From assembly GCF_016757965.1 (NCBI RefSeq), contig NZ_JAEKIW010000004.1, positions 62,001-126,000 on the forward strand: a stretch of 64,000 bases of DNA, read 5' to 3'. The notes beneath the pieces were generated by a model. The model was not told the origin of the DNA. It was given only the letters and a program-made list of their open reading frames with translations, and searched no databases. Of the stretch, positions 10,739-64,000 are shown in pieces; position 1 is the first letter of the stretch; every line of letters begins with the position of its first letter. The translations under genes were made by a program, and so were the position numbers. The DNA comes from Archaeoglobus neptunius (GTDB lineage Archaea; Halobacteriota; Archaeoglobi; Archaeoglobales; Archaeoglobaceae).

Positions 10739-11605
10739 ATGACCGGTTACGCAGACTCAATGGCATCACTGAGCGGTCTGGTGTGGATACTGCTTTTCCT
10801 TTACCTCATTTTCGCCCCGCAGCTTAAACACCAGAAGTTGCTGGTGGCCAGAAGAAGGCTGATGGAGGCCATTGGTAAGAAAAGAGGCAGCAATGTAATT
10901 ACGATGATACACAGACAGGAGAGCATTGGATTTCTCGGCATCCCCATTTACAGATTCATTGATATTGATGACTCGGAGAAGGTTCTCAGGGCAATAAGGA
11001 ACACGCCAAAGGACAAGCCAATAGACCTGATCATTCACACGCCGGGTGGACTCGTTTTGGCTGCAACTCAGATAGCAAAAGCTCTGCACGATCATCCGGC
11101 GAAAACCACAGTGATTGTCCCGCACTATGCCATGAGTGGAGGAACGCTTATAGCTCTGGCAGCGGACGAAATTCTGATGGACCCTCATGCTGTCCTTGGC
11201 CCTGTTGATCCCCAACTGATGAACTTTCCAGCTCCATCGATTTTGAGGGCTATTGAGAAAAAGGAACCGAAGGATATTGATGATCAGACACTTATCATGG
11301 CAGATATTGCTGAAAAAGCCATAAAACAGGTCAGAGAAACCGTTTTTGAGCTGCTAAAGAGTAAAATGGACGAGGAGAAGGCGAAAGAAGTTTCAAGAAT
11401 ACTCACAGAGGGAAGATGGACTCATGATTATCCTTTGACACTGGATGTCCTGAGGGGTCTGGGGCTGAATGTTTCAACTGATGTACCGGTCGAGGTTTAC
11501 GAGCTTATGGAACTGTACCCTCAGCCAATGATGCAGAGACATCCGGGCGTCGAGTTCGTTCCAACCCCGAGGGGTAAAAACGGGCAGAGCATGATAAAAT
11601 TCTAA
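10739..11605 (+). CDS. Membrane-anchored SDH/Clp-fold serine protease
   Basis: About 288 residues from ATG at 10739; a TTG at 10724 is possible. The TATA element TTTATCTT at about 10710 favours the ATG as a near-leaderless start. One membrane helix (about residues 6-26) is followed by a Clp/crotonase-fold domain with LIIHTPGG and the nucleophile motif HYAMSGGTLIALAAD (Ser near 132), then MDPHAVLGPVDPQL. This is the SppA/SDH-type protease group (Ser-Asp-His, PF01972), thought to cut membrane peptides or process membrane proteins. The convergent gene overlaps its stop by four bases. Confidence 0.88.
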   Translation: MTGYADSMASLSGLVWILLFLYLIFAPQLKHQKLLVARRRLMEAIGKKRGSNVITMIHRQESIGFLGIPIYRFIDIDDSEKVLRAIRNTPKDKPIDLIIHTPGGLVLAATQIAKALHDHPAKTTVIVPHYAMSGGTLIALAADEILMDPHAVLGPVDPQLMNFPAPSILRAIEKKEPKDIDDQTLIMADIAEKAIKQVRETVFELLKSKMDEEKAKEVSRILTEGRWTHDYPLTLDVLRGLGLNVSTDVPVEVYELMELYPQPMMQRHPGVEFVPTPRGKNGQSMIKF

Positions 11606-12552
11606 ATAACCACAACATCGAACCCCATATTCCTCAAAATTCTCAAAACTTCTCTCTTTTTATCGGTGAAGGCCAGTACCCGTCCTCTGGCGTATGCGTC
11701 CACAATCCTCTCCGCTGCAAGAATCGAGTTACTCTCGTTGGTTTCCACAAAAACAGCATCGAGTCTTTCGGCATACTTCTCATCCTTTGAGTCGGTAATG
11801 TAAAGAAGCATGTCCAGCAGAGAATTTCTGTATCCGTTTTTGAATTCCGAGCCATCACTAACTTCAAGTCCTTCAATGCACCCCAGCCAGTAGACCACAA
11901 GCCCTTCACCGAACATTTCGTGGTATTTGGAGTACTGCTTTCTCCAGTAGAGATCATGGCTTAGCGGATCCCCAAACAGTGCCTTGCTCTCTATCCATTT
12001 CAGCTTTTTGCCAAGGAATTCTACTGGTTCGTCGAAATAAAAGTCGGGGGTTTTTCTGAACAGCCCTTTCAGGTCCCTCTCTGTTTTGAATTCCAAACCC
12101 TTCTTCTCAAGTTCATATGCCAGAGCCATCTCTCCAAGCCTGCCTCTGGCCCTTTGAAGTCTTGCGGCAATGGGAGAGTACACGTAGTCTCTCAGCACGG
12201 CATCTTTTATCTTCTCTGCAAGTTGTTCATCCTCAACCGTATTTTCGGGATCTCTTAAAGCTCTGTTAATCGTTTTTGCAGAATAGCCCATTCCCTTCAT
12301 CAAAAGTCTTATTTTCATCACTGGTGGCAGGGTCAGCCACTTGGGAAAGCTCTTGTTCCTCTCCCAGAAGTCCACGATCTCAGGAATTTTATCTGCGAAT
12401 GTATGATACTTGCGTTTTACACTTTCGACCTTTTTCTGCTGAAGAATGCAGTGAAGCATTCCTCTTGGATACTGCATTTTTCCAATATCTCGGATGGTTC
12501 TAAGTTCCCTTCTGATTCTCCAGAATTCGTTCACGGAAACTCTCATCAGCAT
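11602..12552 (-). CDS. TPD-motif nuclease-like protein, archaeal relative of CDIN1 (C15orf41)
   Basis: 316 residues. An N-terminal helical part is followed by a PD-(D/E)xK-like core: [20 protein letters not shown], then FRKTPDFYF carrying the TPD motif, then [17 protein letters not shown] and [11 protein letters not shown]. That run of motifs is the mark of the C15orf41/CDIN1 family (CDAN1-interacting nuclease, mutated in human congenital dyserythropoietic anaemia). A second domain at the C-terminus (about 235-316) resembles a Rossmann-like half. The archaeal role is unknown. It overlaps the upstream small gene by 7 bases. Confidence 0.8.
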
Positions 12553-12815
12553 CCCCTTAAAGAGTAAACAAAAAGCACCCTAACCCTGCTTCCTCTCAAT
12601 CCTGCATACTTTGTGCTCATCTTGATTCTGAACTTCATGGTCTTCCTTAGCTTGGAGATTAGTTTTCTGGCCTCGTTAACATCTTCAAAATAGATGTCCA
12701 GCCCATATCTGGAACTTTCTATTTTGGCGTTGGTTTTTAAAGCCATGGTTTTCACGATTTTAATTTTTTCGGGCTTAACATCCCTTACCTGTATAATGCA
12801 GGGGTGATTCACCAC
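12546..12815 (-). CDS. Conserved small protein, possibly NMD3-related
   Basis: 89 residues with a GTG start (either of two adjacent GTGs at 12815 and 12812). It reads as alternating beta and alpha: [40 protein letters not shown] and [13 protein letters not shown]. The DIYF-then-Ala/Arg helix pattern recalls a domain of archaeal NMD3-type proteins, but no zinc fingers are present, so this is only a suggestion. It is coupled to the CDIN1-like gene and diverges from the hexulose-phosphate synthase gene; TTTTAAAA at 12836-12843 can serve as its TATA element. Confidence 0.55.
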
Positions 12816-12908
12816 GAATTATATTCATCCGGGGGTTTTAAAACCTATCCTTCCACCGGACATAATCCCTTAAAAAAGATTAAATTTCCTGCAGAGCAAT
12901 ATCGTTCC

Positions 12909-14207
12909 ATGAACCGACCTATCCTTCAGGTTGCTCTCGACCTTCTTGAACTCAAAAGGGCTGTTGAGATTGCTGGAGAGGCGATAGAAGGTGGGGCGAA
13001 CTGGATTGAGGCTGGAACGCCATTAATTAAAAGCGAAGGTATGAATGCAATCAGGGAACTGAAGAAAAAGTATAAAGGTCACAAAATCCTTGCTGATATG
13101 AAAACAATTGATACCGGTGCTGTTGAGGTTGAAATGGCTGCGAAAAGCGGAGCTGATGTGGTTATTATCTTAGCCCTTTCCGATGACGATACAATTGCGG
13201 AGGCCATAAGGGCTGCGAGAAAATACGGCTGTGAAGTGATGGTTGACTTAATAAATGTTCCTGAACCTGTAAAAAGAGCGCAGGAGGTTGAAGAACTCGG
13301 TGTTGACTATCTTAATGTTCATGTCGGTATCGATCAGCAGATGAAGGGTCTGGACCCCCTCGAGGTCTTGGGCGATGTTGTGAAAAACGCATCCATACCG
13401 GTGGCGGCCGCCGGAGGACTTGATGCCGAAAGGGCAGCGGCATGTGTGGCGATGGGTGCAAGTATTGTCATCGTGGGGAGCAACATCGTAAAATCGAGAA
13501 ATGTGACGGAGTCTGCAAGAAAGATAAGAGAGGCTATAGACAGGGCTTCCGAGAAAGCGGAGATTCGAATGGAAAGAAAAACCCTTGACGAGGAGATAAG
13601 GCGGCTGCTGATGGAGGTTTCCACCCCAAACGTGAGCGATGCCATGCACAGGGCAAGAGCCATGAACGGGGTTTATCCGCTTGTGCGGGGCAAGAAGGTG
13701 GTGGGTAAAGCTGTAACTGTAAGTACAATGGATGGAGATTGGGCAAAAACTGTCGAGGCCATAAACGTTGCTGGCGAGGGAGACGTTCTCGTCATCAAAT
13801 GTTCGGGAGACACTGCGGCAGTATGGGGGGAGCTTGCCACGAGAAGCTGTCTGAACAGGAAGATTGCAGGTGTTATCATAGATGGGGCTGTGAGGGATGT
13901 TGATGACATCAGAGATCTCGGATACCCTGTGTTCGCCAGAAAGGAGGTGCCAAACGCAGGGGAGCCGAAGGGTTTTGGTGAAATCAATGTCAAGATAATC
14001 TGCGGTGGAATAGAGGTAAATCCCGGGGACTGGATCATTGCTGACGACAATGGGGTTATGGTAATTCCAAAGAGGAGGGCTTACGAGATAGCGAGAAGGG
14101 CATTGGAGGTCAAGAAATCAGAAGACAGAATTAGGGGGGAGATCGAGGAAAAAGGCAGAACACTGGCAGATGTTGTTGAGCTGTACAAATGGGAAAAGGT
14201 TCAGTGA
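12909..14207 (+). CDS. Bifunctional 3-hexulose-6-phosphate synthase / RraA-like protein
   Basis: 432 residues from ATG at 12909 (MNRPILQVALDLLEL). The in-frame extension to 12804 runs through the opposite promoter and is rejected. Residues 1-210 are an OMP-decarboxylase-fold hexulose-phosphate synthase (ILADMKTIDTGAVEVEMAAK, DLINVPEPVKRAQEVEE, NVHVGIDQQMKG, VAAAGGLDAERA). Residues 225-425 are an RraA-like domain (STPNVSDAMHRA, GVIIDGAVRDVDDI, GDWIIADDNGVMVIP). The synthase, run in reverse, supplies ribulose-5-phosphate in archaea lacking the oxidative pentose pathway. The RraA-like part may be an aldolase or a regulator. Confidence 0.93.
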   Translation: MNRPILQVALDLLELKRAVEIAGEAIEGGANWIEAGTPLIKSEGMNAIRELKKKYKGHKILADMKTIDTGAVEVEMAAKSGADVVIILALSDDDTIAEAIRAARKYGCEVMVDLINVPEPVKRAQEVEELGVDYLNVHVGIDQQMKGLDPLEVLGDVVKNASIPVAAAGGLDAERAAACVAMGASIVIVGSNIVKSRNVTESARKIREAIDRASEKAEIRMERKTLDEEIRRLLMEVSTPNVSDAMHRARAMNGVYPLVRGKKVVGKAVTVSTMDGDWAKTVEAINVAGEGDVLVIKCSGDTAAVWGELATRSCLNRKIAGVIIDGAVRDVDDIRDLGYPVFARKEVPNAGEPKGFGEINVKIICGGIEVNPGDWIIADDNGVMVIPKRRAYEIARRALEVKKSEDRIRGEIEEKGRTLADVVELYKWEKVQ

Positions 14208-14434
14208 ACATTGTGGGTGTGGTCACTCGTATGGTGTATCGGTGTGAGTGATGCAACAACTAATCTGCTTTGATGATTGAAAAAAACAAAAGGCATTGAA
14301 GCTCATGCTGACTGGTGAGAGATGGGAAGAGTGGTGAAAGACTCCTGCTTCGAATCATCTACCTGCCTAGATTGTCGGACAAAATCTTTCGCATTCCTAC
14401 AGCCCTCGTCATTTCCTTTTAACTCTGATAAAAA
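14208..14434. other. Intergenic region downstream of hps-rraA
   Basis: 227 bases with no supported gene. A GTGATG (near 14243), a TGATGA (near 14269) and a CTGA (near 14310) recall C/D-box elements, but their spacing does not fit a standard C/D sRNA. Confidence 0.35.
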
Positions 14435-14516
14435 CGCCGGGGGTGGGACTTGAACCCACGAGCCCTTACGGGCACCAGCTCTCAAGGCTGGCGCAGTGCC
14501 TCTCTGCAACCCCGGC
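14435..14516 (-). tRNA. tRNA-Ser (anticodon UGA)
   Basis: 82 bases; the 7-bp acceptor stem GCCGGGG/CCCCGGC is closed by discriminator G73, as in tRNA-Ser. The anticodon stem CCAGC/GCTGG encloses the loop CTTGAGA, giving anticodon TGA. A long variable arm (GCCCGTAAGGGC) and the T-arm GTGGG-TTCAAGT-CCCAC are present. CCA is not encoded; TTTT follows the gene. A TATA-like TTTCATAAACAT lies about 30 bases upstream. Confidence 0.95.
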
Positions 14517-14645
14517 AATAAACGTTCAACTTCGCAGATGTTTATGAAACTTTTGCTGAAAGAGTTGAAATCGTTTTAAGGGTACCATCTGGTGCTGACC
14601 ACCACGGCCGCAAATAACTTATTGGTCACTGACAGTAAATTCTCA

Positions 14646-16034
14646 ATGAAGAAATATGATGCAATTGTAATAGGTACGGGTTCGGGAATGATTGTTGTGG
14701 AGAGTCTCCTCAATGAAAAACCCGATGCCAGAATTGCCGTCATCGACAAGGATCGTGCGGGCGGAATATGTCTCACAAGAGGCTGCATACCTTCCAAGCT
14801 GATAGTCTCTCTGGCAGATGTTCTCTACGACCTTGAGAAACTTTCTGATCTCATCATAGCAGGAGTTGAGAGAGTTGATTTTGAGAAAGTAATGGAACGG
14901 ATGAGGAACAGTATTTATCCTGAAAGCGAAGAGATAGAGAAGGCTCTTAGAGCTTCAGATAATATAGACTACTACCGGTCAATTGCCAAATTTAAATCCT
15001 CGCATGTACTTTCCGTTGATGGACAGGATATAACTTCTAAAAAAATTTTCATCGGTTCGGGATCCAGACCTCTTGTTCCAAAAATAAAAGGGCTGAGTGA
15101 TGCCGGCTATCTCACAAGCGATACGATCCTGAACCTAAGGGAAATGCCTGACAGCCTCGCCGTCATAGGTGGCGGATATGTTGCAGTAGAGTATGGCAGT
15201 TTTTTTGCGAGAATTGGATGTGACGTCACGATTGTGGAGATGATGCCAAGAATACTGCACAGTGAGGAACCGGAAATATCGAGGGCGGTTGAGGATGAGC
15301 TTGTGCATCATGCGACCGTTCTCACATCTCACAGGGTTGTTGAGGTTAAAAGAAAGGAAGGTAGAAGGATTGTGGTTGCAGAAGGAATGAAGGGAAGAAG
15401 GGAGATAGAATGTGAGGAAATACTTGTGGCTGTTGGAAGAGCCCCCAATTCAGACATATTGAAGCCTGAAAATGCAGGCATAGAGACGACGAAGGACGGC
15501 TGGATAAAGGTTGATGAATACCTGGAAACGAACGTGCCCGGAATTTATGTGATAGGGGATGCCAATGGGAAGCACATGTTCAGACACGTTGCGAACAGAG
15601 AAGCCATTGTGGCCTACCTCAACGCCTTCCATAATGCAAAAATAAAAATGGACTACTCTGTCGTTCCGCACGCAGTTTTCTGCCAGCCCGAGGTTGCGAG
15701 CGTAGGGATGGGGGAGAAGCAGGCAGTTGAGAAATTCGGAAAGGAAAACGTTTTAGTTGGTTATGAAGAGTTCAGCTCGACTGGTGTTGGCATTGGCCTT
15801 AACCTGAGCGGATTCGCCAAAGTTATAGTGCACAGGGATGGCAGGATACTTGGGGCACACATAGTGGGAAGGTCAGCTTCCGTGATGATACAGGAAATAG
15901 TGACAGCAATGTCTATGGGAGTTCATTACCGGGCAATAACAAATGCTCTGCACATTCATCCTGCGTTGAGCGAGGTTGTGAGCAGAGCCTTCGGTAACCT
16001 TATGACTGTAGATGAATATCACCAGATATCCTGA
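14646..16034 (+). CDS. Dihydrolipoamide dehydrogenase-like pyridine nucleotide-disulfide oxidoreductase
   Basis: 462 residues from ATG at 14646 (MKKYDAIVIGTGSGM); the upstream extension is not protein-like. The FAD-binding GxGSG is followed by the redox-active pair GGICLTRGCIPSK (Cys near 43 and 48), a second nucleotide-binding AVIGGGYVAVEYGSFFARIG, the FAD site TNVPGIYVIGDANG and the C-terminal active-site dyad HIHPALSE. All catalytic residues of the lipoamide dehydrogenase/mercuric reductase class are intact. No E1, E2 or mer genes are adjacent, so the substrate is uncertain. Confidence 0.92.
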   Translation: MKKYDAIVIGTGSGMIVVESLLNEKPDARIAVIDKDRAGGICLTRGCIPSKLIVSLADVLYDLEKLSDLIIAGVERVDFEKVMERMRNSIYPESEEIEKALRASDNIDYYRSIAKFKSSHVLSVDGQDITSKKIFIGSGSRPLVPKIKGLSDAGYLTSDTILNLREMPDSLAVIGGGYVAVEYGSFFARIGCDVTIVEMMPRILHSEEPEISRAVEDELVHHATVLTSHRVVEVKRKEGRRIVVAEGMKGRREIECEEILVAVGRAPNSDILKPENAGIETTKDGWIKVDEYLETNVPGIYVIGDANGKHMFRHVANREAIVAYLNAFHNAKIKMDYSVVPHAVFCQPEVASVGMGEKQAVEKFGKENVLVGYEEFSSTGVGIGLNLSGFAKVIVHRDGRILGAHIVGRSASVMIQEIVTAMSMGVHYRAITNALHIHPALSEVVSRAFGNLMTVDEYHQIS

Positions 16035-16114
16035 ACCCCGCAGGATCACCGGTATTGCGGAACATAAAAGCATGTCTCCGGGAGCCTTGTGTGGAAATAA
16101 AATTCAAAGGGTAA

Positions 16115-16204
16115 TGCTCCGGCCGGGATTTGAACCCGGGTCGCCGGCTTTCTTCGGCAGACCTCGAAAGGCCGGAATGATTGGCCGGGCTACACCACCG
16201 GAGC
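16115..16204 (-). tRNA. tRNA-Glu (anticodon UUC) with intron
   Basis: The acceptor stem GCTCCGG/CCGGAGC has discriminator A. D-arm GTAGCCCGGCCAATCATT, T-arm CCGGG-TTCAAAT-CCCGG. The anticodon stem CCGGC/GCCGG encloses CTTTCGA only when 15 bases are removed, giving anticodon TTC and a 75-base mature RNA. CCA is not encoded. GTTTATAAAC at about 16226-16236 is the likely TATA element. Confidence 0.95.
16150..16164 (-). other. 15-nt intron of tRNA-Glu at position 37/38
   Basis: The intron AGGTCTGCCGAAGAA can fold a canonical bulge-helix-bulge: 32-35 (CUUU) pair with GAAG of the intron, flanked by 3-nt bulges CGA and AAA. This is the substrate shape of the archaeal tRNA splicing endonuclease. Confidence 0.88.
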
Positions 16205-16356
16205 TCTAGATTGCTAGTTTTGATGTGTTTATAAACTCTTCTGTTGGGCATAGCTGAACCCGGCCTGCTAGCACGAACATCACTCCAGCCATTGTAGTGG
16301 CATTCTGACAACTTTCTGCCCCTGGATAAATTATGTCAGCAAAAAAATTGGAGGGA

Positions 16357-16884
16357 TCACTCGATCTTTATTCTCTTACCGCCCTTCTTTGGCGTCTTCT
16401 TTCTGAGGATTACCTCCAGCACTCCGTTGTTATATCTAGCCTTTGCAGAATCCGGTTCTACCTCAACCGGCAGTTCAACGGTCTCGTAGTATTTTCTGTT
16501 CTCCCCTTCAGCCCTGATTTCGAGGGATCTTTCAGTGGCATTCAGCTCAATGTCCTCTTTATTCACACCCGGCATCTCGGCTATAACCTGAACTTCATTG
16601 TCTGTCTCGATCACATCTACCAGTGGCTTTCTCTCCTCTATGCCCGTATCCCTGATGGTTGGCTTTGTTCCGAATTCTCTGATTTCAGGCTTCCCATCTG
16701 GACCGATTCTGATTGAGAATCCTCTGACTATTGGCTTTATTTCACCCATTTCAGCTTTTCTGAACACTTCCTCAATATCTCTCATCATTTTTTCGAAGAT
16801 GTCATCTATCCTGAACCTTCCAAAAAACTCGTCAAATATGTCCCATTCATCATCCCAGTCTCTTCTTCTCCTCCTCCACACCAT
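16357..16884 (-). CDS. hsp20: Small heat-shock protein Hsp20
   Basis: 175 residues. An Arg- and Asp-rich head (MVWRRRRRDWDDEWDIFDE) is followed by an alpha-crystallin domain at about 80-165, with EVQVIAEMPGVNKEDIELN, SLEIRAEGENRKYYETVELP and YNNGVLEVILRKKTPK. The end RIKIE gives the I-x-I anchor used for oligomer assembly. It is a holdase chaperone that keeps unfolded protein soluble. It sits 23 bases downstream of the Cdc48 gene, the last gene of the HSR1 operon, as in A. fulgidus (AF1298-AF1297-AF1296). Confidence 0.95.
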   Translation of the reverse strand: MVWRRRRRDWDDEWDIFDEFFGRFRIDDIFEKMMRDIEEVFRKAEMGEIKPIVRGFSIRIGPDGKPEIREFGTKPTIRDTGIEERKPLVDVIETDNEVQVIAEMPGVNKEDIELNATERSLEIRAEGENRKYYETVELPVEVEPDSAKARYNNGVLEVILRKKTPKKGGKRIKIE

Positions 16885-16907
16885 ATCTCATCACCTCCTC
16901 AAAAATT

Positions 16908-19798
<2,891 letters not shown>

Positions 19799-56078: not shown

Positions 56079-56388
56079 ATGGAAGATCCAGTAAAGAAAT
56101 GGCTTAAATTTGCAGAAAGAGATTTGAGGAGTGCTAAAAGGAATTACGAGATCAGTAAATATCATGTTTCAGCTTTTTTAGCTCAACAGGAAGCAGAAAA
56201 AGCATTAAAGGCTATGCACATCAGGAAAAGTGTGGAGTTTCCAAAGATCATAAAACTGTGTGCAGAAATTACTCCCGCTTATACTGCAACCAGATACCCA
56301 GATGTTGCAGAGGAATTTAACGAGGTTAGAAGACTTAATTAAGTATGTAGGGAAGGTGGTAGAATGGGTGAAAAAGAGATTGATTTAA
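56079..56388 (+). pseudogene. HEPN-domain toxin-like gene, decayed
   Basis: ATG at 56079 gives KWLKFAERDLRSAKRNYEIS and AFLAQQEAEKALKAMHI, typical of HEPN toxins of MNT pairs, then PAYTATRYPDVAEE. The frame stops at 56342, but the expected end (EDLIKYVGKVVEWVKKRLI) continues in another frame to 56388, so one base was gained near 56328-56334. About 20 residues usually found between KAL and IIKLCAEITP are also missing. Confidence 0.75.
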
Positions 56389-56689
56389 ATAAGGCTGAGG
56401 AGTTCATTAAAGGAATTAGCAGAAAGTATCGATTAAAAAAGGCCATAGTTTTCGGATCATCTGTTAAGGGAAATTTCGGAGAGGATAGCGATATTGATTT
56501 GATCGTTATCAGCGATGAGTTTGAAGGTGTAAGCCCGTTGAAACGACCGGTTAGGCTGTATTTGGAGTGGGATCTCGGTTATCCAGTGGATTTTATCTGC
56601 TACACTACTGAAGAGTTCGAGAGGCTCAGCAAGAGGCCGAGCTTGGTGAGGGGGCGTTGGAGGAGGGGAGGGTTGTTGAACTGGGTTGA
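56364..56689 (+). pseudogene. MNT nucleotidyltransferase, frameshifted at the end
   Basis: The N-terminal 90 residues are intact, with the nucleotidyltransferase motif VFGSSVKGNFGEDSDIDLIV. The expected end (SLVRGALEEGRVVELG) is in another frame, after a GGGGG run near 56649-56654 that probably lost one G; the open frame instead runs to 56717 with unrelated residues. Partner of the decayed HEPN gene. Confidence 0.7.
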
Positions 56690-56710
56690 AACTGAAATGG
56701 GGGTAGTTGG

Positions 56711-57226
56711 ATGCTGAATGCGGAAAAAATCAGGTTCTTTTCGGAATCACATAAAGAATACTTGGTAAAATTAATAGAGAAAATTAAGGATTATTATGGC
56801 GATAGACTCATATCTCTCGTTATCTTCGGTTCTTATGCAAGGAAGGAAAATAAGTTAAACTCCGATTTGGATATACTGGTAATTCTAAAAACTGATAAAT
56901 CAAGATCTGAAAGAATTAAGGAATTTGTGGAAAACATCGAAATGCCATTAGAACATTTAGCTCAGAAGCTCGTTGATGAAGGTATATTTGTTGATTTATC
57001 CCCCGTTATTCTGTCCGAAGAGGAGGCGAAGTTCTTTAACCCTCTGTATTTAGATATGGTCGAACATTCAATTATTGTTGTGGATAAAGATAACTTCATC
57101 AAAAAAATATTGGATAGGGTTCGTGAGCAGATGAATGATTGGAAAAGCCACAAAGAATTTGTGGGCAATAGGTGGGTATGGATTATAAAAAAGGGTGAGT
57201 TTACTGGAGGGGTGAAACTTGGATAG
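56711..57226 (+). CDS. MNT-type nucleotidyltransferase antitoxin
   Basis: 171 residues. SLVIFGSYARKENKLNSDLD is the Pol-beta motif (GSYAR, DLD). The C-terminal part is longer than usual. In MNT-HEPN modules the MNT protein adds AMP to the HEPN RNase and blocks it. It overlaps the next gene by eight bases. Confidence 0.88.
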   Translation: MLNAEKIRFFSESHKEYLVKLIEKIKDYYGDRLISLVIFGSYARKENKLNSDLDILVILKTDKSRSERIKEFVENIEMPLEHLAQKLVDEGIFVDLSPVILSEEEAKFFNPLYLDMVEHSIIVVDKDNFIKKILDRVREQMNDWKSHKEFVGNRWVWIIKKGEFTGGVKLG

Positions 57227-57620
57227 ACTGGCTCAAGATTACTTGAAAAGAGCAAGCACAAGGCTGGAGGTTTTGGAAGTATTTTACAAAAAGGAAGATT
57301 ATGCTGATGTAGTTAGGGAAGCCCAAGAAGTCGTGGAGCTGGTATTAAAAGCTGTCTTAAGGAATGCTGGCATAGATGTTCCGAAAATACATGATGTGAG
57401 TAGAATTCTTGAGAAATACAAAGATCTTCTGCCAGAAGAGATCAGGAAAAATTTAAAGAAGATAATGATGATTTCCAAGAGATTGAGAAAGGAGAGGGAA
57501 TTAAGTTTTTACGGTGCTGAAGACTTCATACCTCTCGAAGAGTACACTGCTGAGGAGGCTTTGCAGGCTATAGAAGACGCTAAATTTGTTGTTGAGGTTG
57601 TGGTGAAAGCGTATGAATGA
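57219..57620 (+). CDS. HEPN-domain toxin
   Basis: 133 residues, TTG start. LAQDYLKRASTRLEVLEVFY and YADVVREAQEVVELVLKAVL are the first two HEPN helices, and RLRKERELSFYGAEDF holds the R-rich RNase region with a Tyr (possible AMP target). The Rx4-6H motif is not standard, so nuclease activity is uncertain. Intact partner of the MNT gene. Confidence 0.82.
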   Translation: MDRLAQDYLKRASTRLEVLEVFYKKEDYADVVREAQEVVELVLKAVLRNAGIDVPKIHDVSRILEKYKDLLPEEIRKNLKKIMMISKRLRKERELSFYGAEDFIPLEEYTAEEALQAIEDAKFVVEVVVKAYE

Positions 57621-57669
57621 TGTTTTTGGAGTAGTTGGGGCTATAAATGAAAAATTTGAGGTGAGATAG
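57613..57669 (+). CDS. 18-codon bridging ORF
   Basis: MNDVFGVVGAINEKFEVR starts inside the HEPN stop (ATGA) and ends on the G of the next gene's GTG. It could couple translation across the gap between the toxin pair and the type III operon, or be chance. Confidence 0.3.
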   Translation: MNDVFGVVGAINEKFEVR

Positions 57670-58043
57670 TGGTACTTGAATTTAGCATTTATGAAAATCC
57701 TTGGATGGATAACGGACTTGAGAACTTTTTTAGAATACTAAGAAACTTAGACTCCTGTAATGTTGAGCTAACGGATAACTCAATAAAGCTTGAAATAAAG
57801 AATAAAGAAGAATTCATCAAGGAATTAACAAAGAGAATTCTCGAAAAAAGGCAAAATTTGATAGTCATTGAAAAAAACGAAAAAACTGGTGAAATTAAAG
57901 AGATAAAGAAAGACCACTTGATATTGCAGGAAGAGAAAAAGATCGGTGGAAAGGTAGCCTTTAAGGAAGACTTGTACAAGCCAGAAAAAACAGCTGAAAT
58001 TGTTTCGAAAATATTTGCTGGAGAATACGTGGTGGTTATATGA
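57669..58043 (+). CDS. Uncharacterised protein, first gene of the type III module
   Basis: 124 residues, GTG start after GAGGTGA. The opening FSIYENPWMDNGLENFFRIL recalls the NP(W/F)xDxG start of some Cas8/Cst1 large subunits, but the protein is too short and the rest is charged (KNEKTGEIKEIKKDHLILQE). No family is certain. It overlaps the cmr1-like gene by four bases (ATGA). Confidence 0.6.
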   Translation: MVLEFSIYENPWMDNGLENFFRILRNLDSCNVELTDNSIKLEIKNKEEFIKELTKRILEKRQNLIVIEKNEKTGEIKEIKKDHLILQEEKKIGGKVAFKEDLYKPEKTAEIVSKIFAGEYVVVI

Positions 58044-58579
58044 TGCAGGCAAAAATTAAAACCCTTACACCAATATGGACAGGGGATGTTAAGAGGGAAA
58101 GTGCAAAATTGAGAGAGACCTCAGTTATAGGTTCATTGAGATGGTGGTTTGAGGCTTTGGTGAGGGGGTTGGGTGGTTATGCTTGTGGTGGCATAAACAA
58201 TAAATGTGAGTACAAGGACAATGCAAGCTCTCTTTGTCCAGTTTGCCAAGTATTTGGAACTACTGGATGGAGTAGAAGGTTTAGGTTAGAAGTCAATGGG
58301 AGGTTGAATCGATCACCATTTGTTATAGTAAAAGCAGATGAAAGAGAGAGTCATAGAGGCTGGTTTTTAGGAAGTAGAGAAAGTGGCGGCTTAGTAGGTA
58401 CTTCTGAAGTAAAAATTTATGGAGATTCTCAAATAAAGAATGTTTTAGCATTATTGTTGAACCTATCGTGTTCGTGGGGCATTGGTGCGAAAACACAGGA
58501 TGGTTTTGGTATTTGTGATTGTGAATTTGAGACAGGATACAGTGTTAACAAAGCTATTGAAAAAGTAAAAAAAAAATGA
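58040..58579 (+). CDS. cmr1: Cmr1 N-terminal RAMP domain
   Basis: 179 residues. KIKTLTPIWTGDVKRESAKL, SVIGSLRWWFEALVRGLGGY, CPVCQVFGTTGWSRRFRL and the Gly-rich WGIGAKTQDGFG are the first half of Cmr1, which normally has two RAMP domains in one chain. It ends in VKKK at a run of ten A; one base of slippage joins it in frame to the next gene. Confidence 0.88.
   Translation: MMQAKIKTLTPIWTGDVKRESAKLRETSVIGSLRWWFEALVRGLGGYACGGINNKCEYKDNASSLCPVCQVFGTTGWSRRFRLEVNGRLNRSPFVIVKADERESHRGWFLGSRESGGLVGTSEVKIYGDSQIKNVLALLLNLSCSWGIGAKTQDGFGICDCEFETGYSVNKAIEKVKKK
58567..58576 (+). other. A10 run joining the two cmr1 halves
   Basis: Ten A precede TGA. A -1 ribosomal shift, or a polymerase slip of the same phase, reads KKKK into MIDEFELNQ and yields one Cmr1 chain; without it the second half starts from the overlapping ATG (ATGA). 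Confidence 0.7.
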
Positions 58580-59289
58580 TAGATGAGTTTGAATTAAATC
58601 AAAACCAGCTCAATAATAAACTATTTGCAAATTTGGAGGACTTTTTCTTTGTAAAAGTTAACATAGATGGTGATATTAAGAGCGATATTGAAGGATACCT
58701 CAACAACAGACTCTTTAAAGATCCTAAAAATCAAATAAGCATTGAAGAATTTTTGCAACATGTTTCTGAAAAGTATAAAGATAAATTTTATCCCACAGCT
58801 CCACTAATTAGATACTGGCTTAGAAGTTTGTTTAGGAATGGTAATGATGCTCTAAGACATTTTCTTTTTGGTTTTGTTTCAGTAAAAGGAACTCCCACTC
58901 CTATTTGTAGAACACACCTTACCCATGTGAATAGAAAAGGTAGAGGCCACTTCTGTTCAAAGTGCAAGAGAATTCTGAGAGGCGAAGAGATTTACGAGAA
59001 AATGGGGTCAAAAATTTTTGTTTCACACATCTATAATATTGGTAACAACAAATGGGAATTCAAAATCTGGGGTTATGTGCCAAAAATTTTACCCAACAAC
59101 GAGAGCAGAGAAAAAGTGTTGCAAAAGTTGTTTAGCGAAATCAAAGAGAATAAAAACTTTGTAAACGTATTAAATTTAGATAGAGATTCAACAGCCGTTG
59201 AGTGGTATGAGATTTCTAAGGAGAGATCCAGTATCTCCTCTGTTGAGGCGCTAATTGGTAGTATTTTAGAGGTGAGTAAGAATGAATAA
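58576..59289 (+). CDS. Cmr1 C-terminal half with zinc-ribbon insert
   Basis: 237 residues. APLIRYWLRSLFRNGNDALR, HFLFGFVSVKG, then a Cys/His set CRTHLTHVNRKGRGHFCSKC, and GSKIFVSHIYNIGNNKWEFK with IWGYVPKIL match the second half of Cmr1. It overlaps the first half and the next RAMP gene by four and eight bases. Confidence 0.8.
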   Translation: MIDEFELNQNQLNNKLFANLEDFFFVKVNIDGDIKSDIEGYLNNRLFKDPKNQISIEEFLQHVSEKYKDKFYPTAPLIRYWLRSLFRNGNDALRHFLFGFVSVKGTPTPICRTHLTHVNRKGRGHFCSKCKRILRGEEIYEKMGSKIFVSHIYNIGNNKWEFKIWGYVPKILPNNESREKVLQKLFSEIKENKNFVNVLNLDRDSTAVEWYEISKERSSISSVEALIGSILEVSKNE

Positions 59290-60481
59290 ATGTGACTTTT
59301 ATGCTTGGGTATACAGATGGCAACATGAGAAAAAGGGTGATAAAAGGGAGAACGAGATCAAAAAGAGAGTTACAAAAGAAAAATCACAATTTTGGTACTA
59401 TAAGTTCAAAGAGTTATCCTTGCATAGAATATTATTCCAAAGCATAGAAAAGAAGCAATTTGCCGAAGATGTTAGAACAACATATAAATGGTATATACTT
59501 CCGTCTTTAAATACACTCTCAGAAATTAGAGATAAATTAAATTTTCAAGAATCTTTTTTAGAAGCTTTCAAAATCACAAAAAAATTTGACAATCCAGAAA
59601 ACTTACCATCCTACGCCACATACATCCAAATCCGCTTCATCCTCAAAAAACCCTACCTGAGCAAAGACGATGACGAATTCTACATCATAGACAATCCAAT
59701 CGTAAAAGACAGGGTCTTCAAACTCCCGATGGTCAGAGCAACAACATGGAAAGGAGCTTTGAGATTTGCAGCGATAAAGGTTTTTGAAGATTGGATTTAC
59801 GAAAAACTAACCGAATCAAAACTCGAAAAGAGAATTGTATTCAGGGAGAGAGCAAAAATTGTAAAGCTATTCGGTAACGAAAAAGATTCCCAGGAAGAGT
59901 ATTTGGGGAAGCTGTGTTTATTGGCGATAGAAGGAAAGCTTCCAGCAGGAGAAAAACTAAAAGAAGAAGTCGTCAAGATTAACAAAGAATTCGAAAAATG
60001 GCTTATTGACGAAAAAATCGTCTCAAAAGATATTCCATCAAGGTCTGGAAGGCTCTTCTTTTATCCCACCTTTTTCGATGAGATTTCGCTTGATGTCATA
60101 ACTCCCCTGAGCAGGGAGACAAGAACACCTGTGAGGGGTAGGGGGCCAATTTACTTTGAGATCGCTCCAGATGGGGCAGAGGGGATATTCAGATTACTCT
60201 ACTACCCCTTCGACTTAGTAGCTAAGGGGATGTTAGATGAAATTGAAAATGAAATGAAGGAAGACCTGAACTTCTTAGCAAAAGCACTACAAAAAATGTT
60301 CTACGAAATCGGCTTTTCAGCTAAGAAAACAAGTGGATTCGGAGTGATTTCAGAGTTTAATGGAAATGTGTTGATTCCGTTCAAGAATATTAACTCGAAT
60401 TTCAAATCATTTGACGAGCTTGATTTCTCAAAACTATGCACCAAAGTTAACAAAAATGTTAATTATGGTGCATCAAAATGA
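59282..60481 (+). CDS. RAMP superfamily protein (Cas7-like) of the type III module
   Basis: 399 residues. An N-terminal helical part (1-120) is followed by a RAMP fold: YATYIQIRFILKKPYLSKDD, FKLPMVRATTWKGALRFAAI, SRSGRLFFYPTFFDEISLDV, TRTPVRGRGPIYFEI and the Gly-rich IGFSAKKTSGFGVI. It resembles RAMPs next to csx11 in other type III loci. It ends ATGA with the AbiEi gene. Confidence 0.82.
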   Translation: MNKCDFYAWVYRWQHEKKGDKRENEIKKRVTKEKSQFWYYKFKELSLHRILFQSIEKKQFAEDVRTTYKWYILPSLNTLSEIRDKLNFQESFLEAFKITKKFDNPENLPSYATYIQIRFILKKPYLSKDDDEFYIIDNPIVKDRVFKLPMVRATTWKGALRFAAIKVFEDWIYEKLTESKLEKRIVFRERAKIVKLFGNEKDSQEEYLGKLCLLAIEGKLPAGEKLKEEVVKINKEFEKWLIDEKIVSKDIPSRSGRLFFYPTFFDEISLDVITPLSRETRTPVRGRGPIYFEIAPDGAEGIFRLLYYPFDLVAKGMLDEIENEMKEDLNFLAKALQKMFYEIGFSAKKTSGFGVISEFNGNVLIPFKNINSNFKSFDELDFSKLCTKVNKNVNYGASK

Positions 60482-61224
60482 GAATCAAGATGCTTGATGA
60501 ACTGGCGAGAAAGAAGATATTCACGGTTGAGGAAGCTGCAAAGATTAGTGGTATCGATAAAAATGTCTTAAAAGTCCTTCTTTCAAGGTTAGAAAAGAGG
60601 GGGTGGGTTGAAAGAATAGAGAAGGGCAAATATATGGTGATACCGCTTGGTGCGAGGAAAGGAGAATACACATTAAATGAGTTTGTTATCGGTTCCTTGC
60701 TTGTAAATCCCTCTGCAATTGCGTATTGGTCGGCTCTCAACTATCATGGCTTAACAGAGCAAATACCCACAACTGTTTTTGTTCAAACAACATCAAGGAA
60801 AAAGAAGCGGGAATTGGAGATTTTCGGGGTGAGATACAGGATTGTTAGAGTAAAGGAGGAGAAGTTTTTCGGTGTTGAGAAAGCATGGCTTGATGAGTTT
60901 CAGGTTAATGTGACAGACAGAGAGAAAACTGTTGTTGATTGTCTGGATAAGCCAGAATACTGCGGTGGGGTGATTGAGGTTGCAAAGGCTTTGAAGAATG
61001 GTGAATTTGATTTTGAAAAACTGTCGGAGTATGCTATAAAAATCGGAAACTCGGGAGTTGTAAGAAGACTTGGTTATCTCTGCGATGCTCTGGGATTGCA
61101 GATTGATCTGCCTGAAATCAGGGCGAGGAATTACTTATTTCTTGACCCCACCATGCCCAAGAAGGGCAAAGCTAATGGCAAATGGAGATTGATAATCAAC
61201 CTTGACATCGGTGAGCTTGAATGA
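60478..61224 (+). CDS. abiEi: AbiEi-type antitoxin
   Basis: 248 residues. An N-terminal winged helix (TVEEAAKISGIDKNVLKVLL, RGWVERIEKGKYMVIPLG) and the AbiEi middle (AYWSALNYHGLTEQIPTTVF, QTTSRKKKRELEIFGVRYRI, VTDREKTVVDCLDKPEYCGG) identify the antitoxin of type IV AbiE toxin-antitoxin systems, which also represses its own promoter in bacteria. No separate promoter is visible; the ATG is inside the previous stop, so it is transcribed with the CRISPR genes. Confidence 0.9.
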   Translation: MRIKMLDELARKKIFTVEEAAKISGIDKNVLKVLLSRLEKRGWVERIEKGKYMVIPLGARKGEYTLNEFVIGSLLVNPSAIAYWSALNYHGLTEQIPTTVFVQTTSRKKKRELEIFGVRYRIVRVKEEKFFGVEKAWLDEFQVNVTDREKTVVDCLDKPEYCGGVIEVAKALKNGEFDFEKLSEYAIKIGNSGVVRRLGYLCDALGLQIDLPEIRARNYLFLDPTMPKKGKANGKWRLIINLDIGELE

Positions 61225-61985
61225 TTCCCGAAGTAGAAATAAGGGAGTTCGCAAGGAAAAACGGTGTGCCGGAAACGACAGTTGAGAGAGATTACGCTCA
61301 AAACTGGCTTTTATCTTCTCTGCCACACATCATGGCGTTAAAAGGTGGAACAGGCATTAGAAAGGTGTATATTGGAAATTACAGGTTCTCAGATGATTTA
61401 GATTTCACATTGCTTGAAGATGTGGAAGCTGATGAATTAAAAGATTTTATTGTTAAAGCTGTGAGAGAGGCGAAGAAGAGGAGCGGAATTGATTTTGATG
61501 AGAACATCAGATTTAGGGGAGTTGATAACGGATATGATGTTACAGTTTATTTTAGAATTCTGAGAAGAGCAGGCAACCCCCTACGGATAAAAATAGACAT
61601 AACAAAAAGGGAGAATGAAGCTACACTTCTCCCGCTGGAGAGAAGAAAAATCATCCATCCTTATTCTGATAAATGCGAGACGGAGGTTTTGACTTACTCA
61701 CTTCAGGAGATTTTTGCGGAGAAGATCAGGTCTTTATTCCAGAGAACGAGACCAAGGGATTTGTATGATGTATGGCTTCTTTCAAAACTTGGATTGGATG
61801 TTTCTGGCATTATTGATGAAAAGTTCAGGTTTAAAGGAGTTAAAGCGGATTTTGATGGTTTATTGAGGAGAAAAGAGGATTTCAGAAATGCGTGGGAAAG
61901 CTCGCTCAGGCATCAGCTAAGGGATTTACCTGATTTCAATGTGGTTTTTGATGATGTGATGGAGTTCTTAGGTGGTGTGCTATGA
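61221..61985 (+). CDS. abiEii: AbiEii-type nucleotidyltransferase toxin
   Basis: 254 residues. All four AbiEii motifs are present: KGGTGIRKVYIGNYRFSDDL with DLDF, the Lys-rich KIDITKREN, and QEIFAEKIRSLFQRTRPRDL with YDVW. The toxin acts on the translation machinery (tRNA acceptor ends in MenA-type relatives). It overlaps abiEi and csx11 by ATGA. Confidence 0.9.
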   Translation: MIPEVEIREFARKNGVPETTVERDYAQNWLLSSLPHIMALKGGTGIRKVYIGNYRFSDDLDFTLLEDVEADELKDFIVKAVREAKKRSGIDFDENIRFRGVDNGYDVTVYFRILRRAGNPLRIKIDITKRENEATLLPLERRKIIHPYSDKCETEVLTYSLQEIFAEKIRSLFQRTRPRDLYDVWLLSKLGLDVSGIIDEKFRFKGVKADFDGLLRRKEDFRNAWESSLRHQLRDLPDFNVVFDDVMEFLGGVL

Positions 61986-64000
61986 GTGGGAAATTGAATG
62001 AGTTGATGGAGAATAGGGATGCGATCTTGCTTGCTGAGATTGGGGCTTTGATTCATGATTTGGGGAAGTTGAGTGAGGAGTTTGTAAGATCAAAGTGTAT
62101 TGAAGAATCTGATAAAAATTGGATTCACCACACTGCAGTTATTGAACTCGATATGCATAGAGGGGTTAAATACGCAAATGACATTAGAAGGATACTAAAA
62201 AATATTAAAATAAATATCAATCGGAAGACAATTGCATTATACGATTTTATTTTAGGTCATCATCCTAAGAATTGGGGTAGAAAAGAAAAATGGGATAAAC
62301 TAGAAAGCTTTGAATTCGAGTATCCTGCCTACGATAAAGGTTTGATTTTGTTGAAATTCATTATAGCCTCAGATACTTTTGATAGTGAAGAGGACAAATC
62401 CTACTGTAAAGATCCGCAAAGTGTCTGCGGTATATACAAATCGACATCTTTTGGCTTTGAAGAGGATGTAATCATACCTCAATCTTTGAAAGATGAAAGA
62501 GTAAAGATTTATAAAGTTCTAAGAGACTGGCTGGATTCTTGTAATATTAGAGAAATTATCGATAAGAGGCTCAAAATTCTCAATAAAATCAAAGAGTCAT
62601 TTTCTAAAACACTTGGAGAGACAAGGAGGTCAGCAAACGATGTTACTTTATGGGATCATTCGTACATGACAGCAAGCATGATGAAAGCTCTTTTAGCACA
62701 ATACATTTTGTGTAAATATTTCGAAAATGAAGATAACTGCAAAGAATTTCTAAAAGAAGTAAAGCAAGCAGATACTGCTCCTAAGCAGATAGTATTGAAT
62801 ACTAAACCATTCAAAATATTCTCAGTGGGCTGGAATTTATTCGAATTTCTAAAGCAATCTCACAAAATTCCAGATGTAATTGGTAGAATTAGGATTTTAG
62901 AGGAAATAAGGAATTCTATTAGAAAAATTGTGGAGGAAGAATATGCCTTAGGTAATTCGATCTATGAGGATGATTTTGGAATATACTTTTTAATTCCATC
63001 GGTATTAAGCGATGATGATCTGAAAGAAGTTAAAGAAAGGATTTTCGATGTATTTAACGAAAAAGTGGGTGGTATATTATTACCAGTATTCCATCTTGAG
63101 GAACCAAATCCCAGCGAAGAATTTAGAATCGGAAAATTGCTTACTAAAGCGATGGAAAATATTGGAAAATACGTGAAATCTCACAAAATTGAGTTGATTA
63201 AAGCTCCCACTTGGATTTGTTCATGGAATGAATCCGTGCGATTATCCAAAGAAAAACTTGTTTGCAACGTCTGTGGTAAGGGATTTTACTGCAAAGGTGA
63301 TGATGAAAAGATTTGCGAGACCTGCAAGGATATAAGAAGTAAGGGTAGGGTAAAAGAAATTTCGCAAACAGTCTTTATTGATGAGATTGCTTGGAATCCC
63401 GATGAAAAACAGTACGAAAATGCTTGCTTGCTAATTGCTAAGTTTGATTTGGATGAGTGGTTAAATGGTAGATTTGTTCAGAGTTTGTTTATTAGAGAAC
63501 CAGATAAATACTATGATGATCTAAACTGGAATAGTGGTGAAAATCTTCCCGGTCTAGCGGGTGTACTTGGTAAAGCACTTAAAGATAAAATAAAATCAAA
63601 TGTATGGGATGAAGAAGCAGAGAAAAACGTATATAATGCTGTTAAATCATTTTTACATGATAAAGTACCCATAATAAGGGGAAATTCTACAAAAACTGTA
63701 GCTCTTGGTGTAATCAAGCTGATAGAAGAAGAGATTAAAGATGGGAAAACGTTAACGGATATTCTAAATAGAGAGAAGCATGAGCATTTTATCTCAAATA
63801 CTGCTTTTGATTTTGAATATTTAGATAATTTAGTACTCTCAAAGCCCCCATCACCATCCCGTTTGATGCGTGTTTGGCGTGATACTACAAACTTTTTCAG
63901 TACAGTTGCCAAGAAAATTGAAGCTCCAGATGTGGTGGCATGTAATATTAGGATAAAGGATTTCACATTAAAGGGCAAAAAACTGGTTGAAGGTTTGGCT
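61982..64000 (+). CDS. csx11: Cas10-family protein, Csx11-like, partial
   Basis: 673 codons are visible from ATG at 61982, and the gene continues past the window. An N-terminal HD-like motif AEIGALIHDLGKLSEEF near 18 (HD intact), RRSANDVTLWDHSYMTASMM, a zinc set CNVCGKGFYC...CETC near 430, TVFIDEIAWN, LLIAKFDLDEWLNGRF and PSPSRLMRVWRDTTNFFSTV are Csx11 features. In Cas10 this subunit makes cyclic oligoadenylate through a GGDD motif; none occurs in the visible part. Confidence 0.85.
   Translation, partial: MSGKLNELMENRDAILLAEIGALIHDLGKLSEEFVRSKCIEESDKNWIHHTAVIELDMHRGVKYANDIRRILKNIKININRKTIALYDFILGHHPKNWGRKEKWDKLESFEFEYPAYDKGLILLKFIIASDTFDSEEDKSYCKDPQSVCGIYKSTSFGFEEDVIIPQSLKDERVKIYKVLRDWLDSCNIREIIDKRLKILNKIKESFSKTLGETRRSANDVTLWDHSYMTASMMKALLAQYILCKYFENEDNCKEFLKEVKQADTAPKQIVLNTKPFKIFSVGWNLFEFLKQSHKIPDVIGRIRILEEIRNSIRKIVEEEYALGNSIYEDDFGIYFLIPSVLSDDDLKEVKERIFDVFNEKVGGILLPVFHLEEPNPSEEFRIGKLLTKAMENIGKYVKSHKIELIKAPTWICSWNESVRLSKEKLVCNVCGKGFYCKGDDEKICETCKDIRSKGRVKEISQTVFIDEIAWNPDEKQYENACLLIAKFDLDEWLNGRFVQSLFIREPDKYYDDLNWNSGENLPGLAGVLGKALKDKIKSNVWDEEAEKNVYNAVKSFLHDKVPIIRGNSTKTVALGVIKLIEEEIKDGKTLTDILNREKHEHFISNTAFDFEYLDNLVLSKPPSPSRLMRVWRDTTNFFSTVAKKIEAPDVVACNIRIKDFTLKGKKLVEGLA

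Follow-up and report, generated by a model that had tools for sequence, protein, structure and literature searches.

AbiE toxin-antitoxin genes in the cmr6-csx11 slot of type III-C CRISPR operons: a candidate growth-arrest arm

What is an abortive-infection toxin-antitoxin (TA) pair doing inside a CRISPR effector operon? The question is raised by a 64,000-nucleotide stretch of the 2.1-Mb genome of the archaeon Archaeoglobus neptunius (G000:C4:62001-126000, hereafter the window), at the end of which abiEi and abiEii lie within a type III-C operon with the order cmr1-cmr6-[abiEi-abiEii]-cas10c(csx11)-cmr4-cmr5-cmr3. A preliminary description of this DNA proposed that the pair had become a component of the operon, as an addiction module or as an effector or sensor arm. 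Membership in Csx11 (III-C) operons is borne out: the pair recurs in such operons in five lineages, and in two of these AbiEii is joined to Csx11. The explanation that we prefer, and whose chances we consider evenly balanced, is that a self-regulated AbiE cassette docked repeatedly in a dedicated III-C slot, where it would serve as an abortive or growth-arrest arm of a cyclase-dead III-C system.

The cmr6-csx11 slot and its toxin modules

About 57 csx11 loci, mostly on contigs of metagenome-assembled genomes, were gathered by Csx11 alone, so that the set was not selected for AbiE; the bacterial side of the comparison comprised 51 loci. The genes abiEi-abiEii were found between cmr6 and csx11 in loci of Archaeoglobaceae, ANME-1 (Methanophagales), Aerophobetes, Caldisericia and Altiarchaeales. 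The check suggested earlier, a search for the pair between a RAMP gene and csx11 in other genomes, thus gave a positive answer, and an arrangement unique to this genome is ruled out. The pair is unfused in the window, in L052 (Methanophagales) and in L073 (Aerophobetes). In the Geoglobus locus L007 abiEii adjoins csx11 at the contig end, and L085, binned as Thermoproteota, carries a close, frame-broken copy.

In four other loci, L011, L013, L039 and L065 (Chloroflexi), the same slot is occupied by MNT-HEPN pairs. Those of L065, L013 and L039 match PF01909/PF18765 (MNT) and PF05168 (HEPN), whereas that of L011 was assigned by homology and overlapping open reading frames (ORFs); the modules of L065 and L011 were recognised by reading all frames. 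The MNT-HEPN genes of L065 are chained by ATGA overlaps as in the window operon. The ribonuclease motif RX4-6H had no match in the slot HEPN proteins of L013 and L065, the two of the four that were examined.

Counting as an insert any spacing of at least 150 nt, we found one in 9 of 54 readable cmr6-csx11 junctions, and all nine were nucleotidyltransferase TA modules (five AbiE, four MNT-HEPN). The four other junctions of the operon held a single insert in 170 cases, a gap of exactly 150 nt (Fisher p 1.3e-5, a guide only, as the loci are related by descent). Recurrence and this junction control rule out a chance neighbourhood. No csx11 was found in IMG/VR, so a viral source is not supported; two AbiEi relatives lie on viral contigs, without CRISPR linkage. 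Elsewhere, a related abiEi-abiEii pair with an operator-like palindrome of its own stands directly before cas1-cas2-cas4 (L167 1-4306, G386:C169) and is a second kind of AbiE-CRISPR link.

Both window proteins keep their diagnostic motifs, as had been stated. Motifs I-IV of AbiEii/DUF1814, defined as hGGx15DhD, K/R and +DxxD, contain residues required for toxicity in Streptococcus (PMC3985639). The window AbiEii has them intact as GGx15DLD, K-x6-R and RDLYD (GGTGIRKVYIGNYRFSDDLD and KIRSLFQRTRPRDLYD); hGGx15DhD is present in every embedded AbiEii with a complete N-terminus, and K/R and RDLYD in every embedded copy. AbiEi has an N-terminal winged helix-turn-helix (AbiEi_4, 6e-10, residues 6-54) and a C-terminal antitoxin domain (AbiEi_1, 1.8e-4, residues 77-203, exactly at the profile cut-off), and its PADLOC match covers residues 4-247. 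Ratios of nonsynonymous to synonymous substitution rates, each from one close pair, were 0.063 for abiEi (against the L085 copy) and 0.11 for abiEii (against the L007 copy), values that show purifying selection on both genes. The sequence relatives of AbiEii in the PDB are AbiGII and MenT/JHP933-like nucleotidyltransferases.

The Cas10-like partner is Csx11 (TIGR02682 score 364.7 bits, cut-off 248.95). Searched by sequence against the PDB it gave no match; a fold search with its model (predicted local distance difference test score (pLDDT) 88.7, predicted template modelling score (pTM) 0.88) did, the closest folds being Csm1/Cas10 chains. The GGDD cyclase motif is absent: the turn that joins strands 751-755 and 759-765 has the sequence SPT, the Csx11 set keeps a proline at this expected GGDD turn, and the GGDD-like matches in the set are GGEE-like only and C-terminal. 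This agrees with published descriptions of III-C, which report no cyclase site and no known effectors (PMC11229360, PMC12669027). The window Csx11 has the HD motif, as do 44 of the 53 sequences in the alignment.

In several loci the toxin is joined to a Cas protein. Caldisericia L051 and Altiarchaeales L054 have abiEi followed by a fusion gene with AbiEii at the N-terminus of Csx11; L058 keeps, as a remnant, the same in-frame AbiEii-Csx11 join as L051. In the uncultured bacterium L087, abiEi and an AbiEii-Cmr1 fusion gene head the operon and are followed by cmr6 and by csx11, within which the contig ends. In the model of the L051 fusion (pLDDT 89.4, pTM 0.81) a single helix, residues 243-278, spans the join. 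These fusions point beyond mere addiction, and the recurrence of nucleotidyltransferase toxin modules in one slot among unrelated bacteria and archaea, with two fusions to Csx11, suggests a built-in toxic arm for III-C.

A bolder form of this idea would make AbiEii or MNT-HEPN an integral, working part of the III-C ribonucleoprotein, activated when target RNA binds Cas10c, with nucleotidyl transfer in place of cyclic oligoadenylate signalling; it seems to us doubtful. The fusion in two lineages, the in-frame remnant on the L058 csx11, the rigid helical join that the L051 model predicts, the loss of the cyclase site and the sharing of one slot by two unrelated nucleotidyltransferase TA types would all fit it. 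Most csx11 loci, however, have no such module, AbiEi retains both domains and its own operator, superfluous features for a pure subunit, and MNT normally has the role of antitoxin rather than toxin in an MNT-HEPN pair.

An operator within cmr6

Directly upstream of abiEi lie two 28-nt inverted repeats, 4 nt apart, which occupy the 3' end of cmr6 and extend into abiEi codons 1-3. The palindrome is equally spaced from abiEi in L052, L051 and L073. It also stands ahead of the stand-alone archaeal AbiE pairs L164, L165, L175 and L177, and its core is found in L168, L170 and L172-L174. A matrix built without the window copy scored this site at 44.5 bits, the sole site on both strands of the 64 kb; in csx11 loci that have no AbiE the scan found no operator site, with two exceptions (L058 and L091). 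In L087, AbiE and an inverted repeat of its own stand at the head of the whole operon.

AbiEi of S. agalactiae is a repressor of its own promoter and binds a pair of 23-bp inverted repeats separated by 3 bp (PMC7319586). The geometry in the window resembles that of the Streptococcus operator, and the paired repeats are probably an operator bound by AbiEi. An RNA hairpin fits less well, as three separated half-site blocks with unpaired spacers better suit a protein-bound DNA palindrome. The operator is conserved and also found at stand-alone pairs; hence the cassette brought its control element with it, and the cmr6 reading frame passes through this element. Since abiE and csx11 overlap, a promoter at the operator would also drive csx11-cmr4-cmr5-cmr3. 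AbiE has thus probably kept its own control, with a reach that includes csx11, and independent, AbiEi-controlled transcription is likely.

The preliminary description had seen no gap for a promoter between the overlapping genes. As a statement on spacing this holds, but an AbiE-type operator sits within the end of cmr6, and the conclusion that the pair has no promoter of its own has to be given up in view of the conserved site directly upstream of abiEi. The finding alters the mechanism and leaves the association of AbiE with III-C standing.

The same element raises the thought that AbiEi and the operator form a derepressible internal promoter for cas10c-cmr4-cmr5-cmr3, AbiEii being kept only as the partner that AbiEi needs. 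The position of the operator just ahead of the overlapping abiE-csx11 genes, its intact state in L058 after the loss of abiE and the repeat-bearing AbiE at the head of the L087 operon are in keeping with such a role. It is nevertheless rather improbable, because MNT-HEPN occupies the same slot without an AbiEi-type repressor, and purifying selection acts on AbiEii, whose active site is intact.

Gains, losses and the weighing of explanations

The state of the slot changes at least nine times on the Csx11 tree (a quick tree, with four loci of unreadable slots set aside). The AbiE loci of the window and Geoglobus are nested beside MNT-HEPN carriers; modules have therefore been swapped or regained. 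A single origin of all embedded AbiE was rejected when the Altiarchaeales copy was included (approximately unbiased test, p 1.5e-4); without this copy, one embedded clade was not rejected (p 0.12). The number of captures is uncertain because the free AbiE relatives come mostly from one archaeal phylum.

Losses have left traces as well. In L058 a remnant of the AbiEii C-terminus precedes csx11 in frame, abiEi and most of abiEii are gone, and the AbiEi-type operator is still intact in cmr6 (L058 5760-5900), possibly as an orphan regulatory site. In L091, the sister of L052, a decayed operator leads straight into csx11. As read from these remains, both loci carry scars of AbiE loss.

Such a pattern would also fit addiction or selfish hitch-hiking, in which TA cassettes insert at places where a horizontally moving defence operon carries them along and AbiE only stabilises the locus, without any role in interference. 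The retained operator, the patchy presence with its many changes on the tree, the scars, the AbiE/MNT-HEPN swaps among close Csx11 relatives and the reported ability of AbiE to stabilise mobile elements (PMC3985639) all speak for it. Hitch-hiking leaves unexplained, however, why one junction out of five is used, why the slot holds nucleotidyltransferase TA modules exclusively and why AbiEii is fused to Cas proteins, and we regard it as unlikely.

In the explanation that we prefer, the operator, abiEi and abiEii form a self-contained cassette between cmr6 and cas10c that would tie a toxin to the expression of Cas10c, whose cyclase is dead. AbiEi would bind the operator and, as its Streptococcus counterpart does, repress a promoter at this site that would also serve the overlapping csx11-cmr4-cmr5-cmr3. 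AbiEii would be freed by a drop in AbiEi (when a virus takes over, or when the locus is lost or repressed) or once the complex has engaged a target; it would then halt growth by transferring nucleotides, with tRNA, as for its MenT relatives, the probable acceptor. This would supply III-C with an abortive arm of the kind that cyclic oligoadenylate effectors provide in other type III systems.

Several observations weigh against this explanation. Most csx11 loci have no AbiE, and it was deleted in L091 and L058, so III-C does not need it; the two losses show that it is dispensable on the evolutionary time scale. That the operator has been kept speaks for an autonomous module, which may be selfish. 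What separates the L051 fusion from its unfused relatives is the length of a short A run, and there are other frame breaks in the L054 locus. The Csx11-type subunit and Cmr1 lie at opposite ends of related complexes; AbiEii is fused to both, and therefore no single docking place is implied. The HD site, kept in half or more of III-C loci, may allow III-C activity even when no toxin is present. In Streptococcus the AbiE toxin and its antitoxin show no binding to one another (PMC3985639), and by analogy there would be no obvious physical switch.

Slot specificity and the fusions speak for integration, the loss scars and the kept operator for autonomy. The readings overlap in part and are not mutually exclusive. 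As a more general proposal, offered tentatively, docked nucleotidyltransferase toxins, AbiEii or MNT-HEPN, may have replaced the lost Cas10 signalling of cyclase-dead III-C; they would be RNA-guided effectors on or beside Cas10c that kill or arrest cells by transferring nucleotides directly, no second messenger being involved.

The surrounding locus and known systems

The features of the locus are collected in Table 1. All junctions of the genes in 57669-64000 are ATGA overlaps, except the 8-base overlap of orf237 and the RAMP gene, exactly as described before. The csx11 gene runs beyond the window end (1078 aa when complete), and cmr4, cmr5, cmr3 and cas3 come after it, outside the window (locus L002). 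PADLOC recovered the backbone of Cmr1, Cmr3, Cmr4, Cmr5 and Cmr6, with Cmr1 as two ORFs.

Table 1. Features of the III-C locus in the window
Feature	Position	Strand	Evidence
orf124	57669..58043	+	ORF heading the III-C gene string; no Pfam family
cmr1, N-terminal part	58040..58579	+	TIGR01894 8.8e-23; PADLOC Cmr1 1.3e-21
orf237, C-terminal part of split cmr1	58576..59289	+	BLAST and profile matches
cmr6 (RAMP399)	59282..60481	+	Pfam RAMPs 3.7e-15; PADLOC Cmr6 7e-80
AbiEi-type operator (predicted)	60425..60484	+	inverted repeats 60425-60452 / 60457-60484
abiEi, antitoxin/repressor	60478..61224	+	Pfam AbiEi_4 and AbiEi_1; PADLOC AbiEi (PDLC02267) 3.9e-87
abiEii, nucleotidyltransferase toxin	61221..61985	+	Pfam AbiEii 4.4e-33; PADLOC 9e-69
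csx11 / cas10c, 5' part	61982..64000	+	TIGR02682 1.2e-108; PADLOC Cas10c CAS-III-C 1e-133

The gene called cmr1-like in the preliminary description is indeed cmr1, but it is not a single complete gene. It is broken at an A10 run (58566-58576), and orf237 matches residues 200-350 of a full-length Cmr1 from a relative (BLAST, E 5e-12); relatives have a single cmr1 gene. A sequencing error, a pseudogene or programmed slippage may account for the split, all three being compatible with it. For orf124 (124 aa) no homologue was found among the csx11 loci examined.

A type I-A cas set (cas6, cas3, cas7, cas5 and others) lies directly upstream of the III-C genes. Between the two, at window positions 56079-57620, are a HEPN-MNT and an MNT-HEPN pair; counting both, the locus holds three nucleotidyltransferase TA modules. 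The III-C operon also contains a second cas3-like helicase gene, overlapping the cmr3 end (L002 12581-14968); such a gene is unusual in a type III locus and is likewise seen in L078. No CRISPR repeat array was found in the window or its flank. The genome has cas1 and long CRISPR arrays on a separate contig, C14, where arrays of about 70 and 13 repeats lie near cas1 (L183 about 11487-17116, G000:C14), the cas effector operons being on the other contig.

A literature search found no text combining Csx11 and AbiEii, with subscription papers and supplements outside its reach, and the consulted surveys of III-C and of type III systems do not mention the arrangement. The combination of AbiE with III-C is probably novel. 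CRISPR-linked TA units as such are already known; a fixed III-C slot for nucleotidyltransferase TA cassettes, together with toxin-Cas10 fusions, is probably what is new. Few type III subtypes combine a dead cyclase with a lack of known effectors, and III-C is among them; the slot and the natural toxin-Cas10 fusions make its action after target recognition directly testable. The natural AbiEii-Cas fusion proteins are ready material for biochemistry, and the arrangement would make a single co-expressed unit of two defence classes, CRISPR and abortive-infection toxins.

The window operon has the Cas10c, Cmr1 and Cmr3-Cmr6 families of type III-C (Csx11/Cas10c, MTH326-like), with the cyclase motif missing and HD kept. 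It differs from the published III-C systems, for which no effector or TA pair is mentioned (PMC11229360, PMC12669027), in having abiEi-abiEii between cmr6 and cas10c. With type IV AbiE systems it shares the two proteins, their order, the 4-base overlap, nucleotidyltransferase motifs I-IV and the paired upstream inverted repeats; here, in contrast, the pair is inside a Cas operon, the operator is in the cmr6 coding sequence, and in relatives the toxin is fused to Csx11 or Cmr1. The pairs of MNT and PF05168 HEPN in the same slot of four relatives resemble the type VII system MntA-HepT (MNT-HEPN); however, the slot HEPN proteins of L013 and L065 are without RX4-6H, and in the known systems the nucleotidyltransferase is the antitoxin. 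CreTA, which guards type I Cascade, likewise links a TA unit with the locus of a CRISPR effector. It consists of small RNAs with an antitoxin resembling CRISPR RNA, whereas both components here are protein-coding and the window holds no repeat array.

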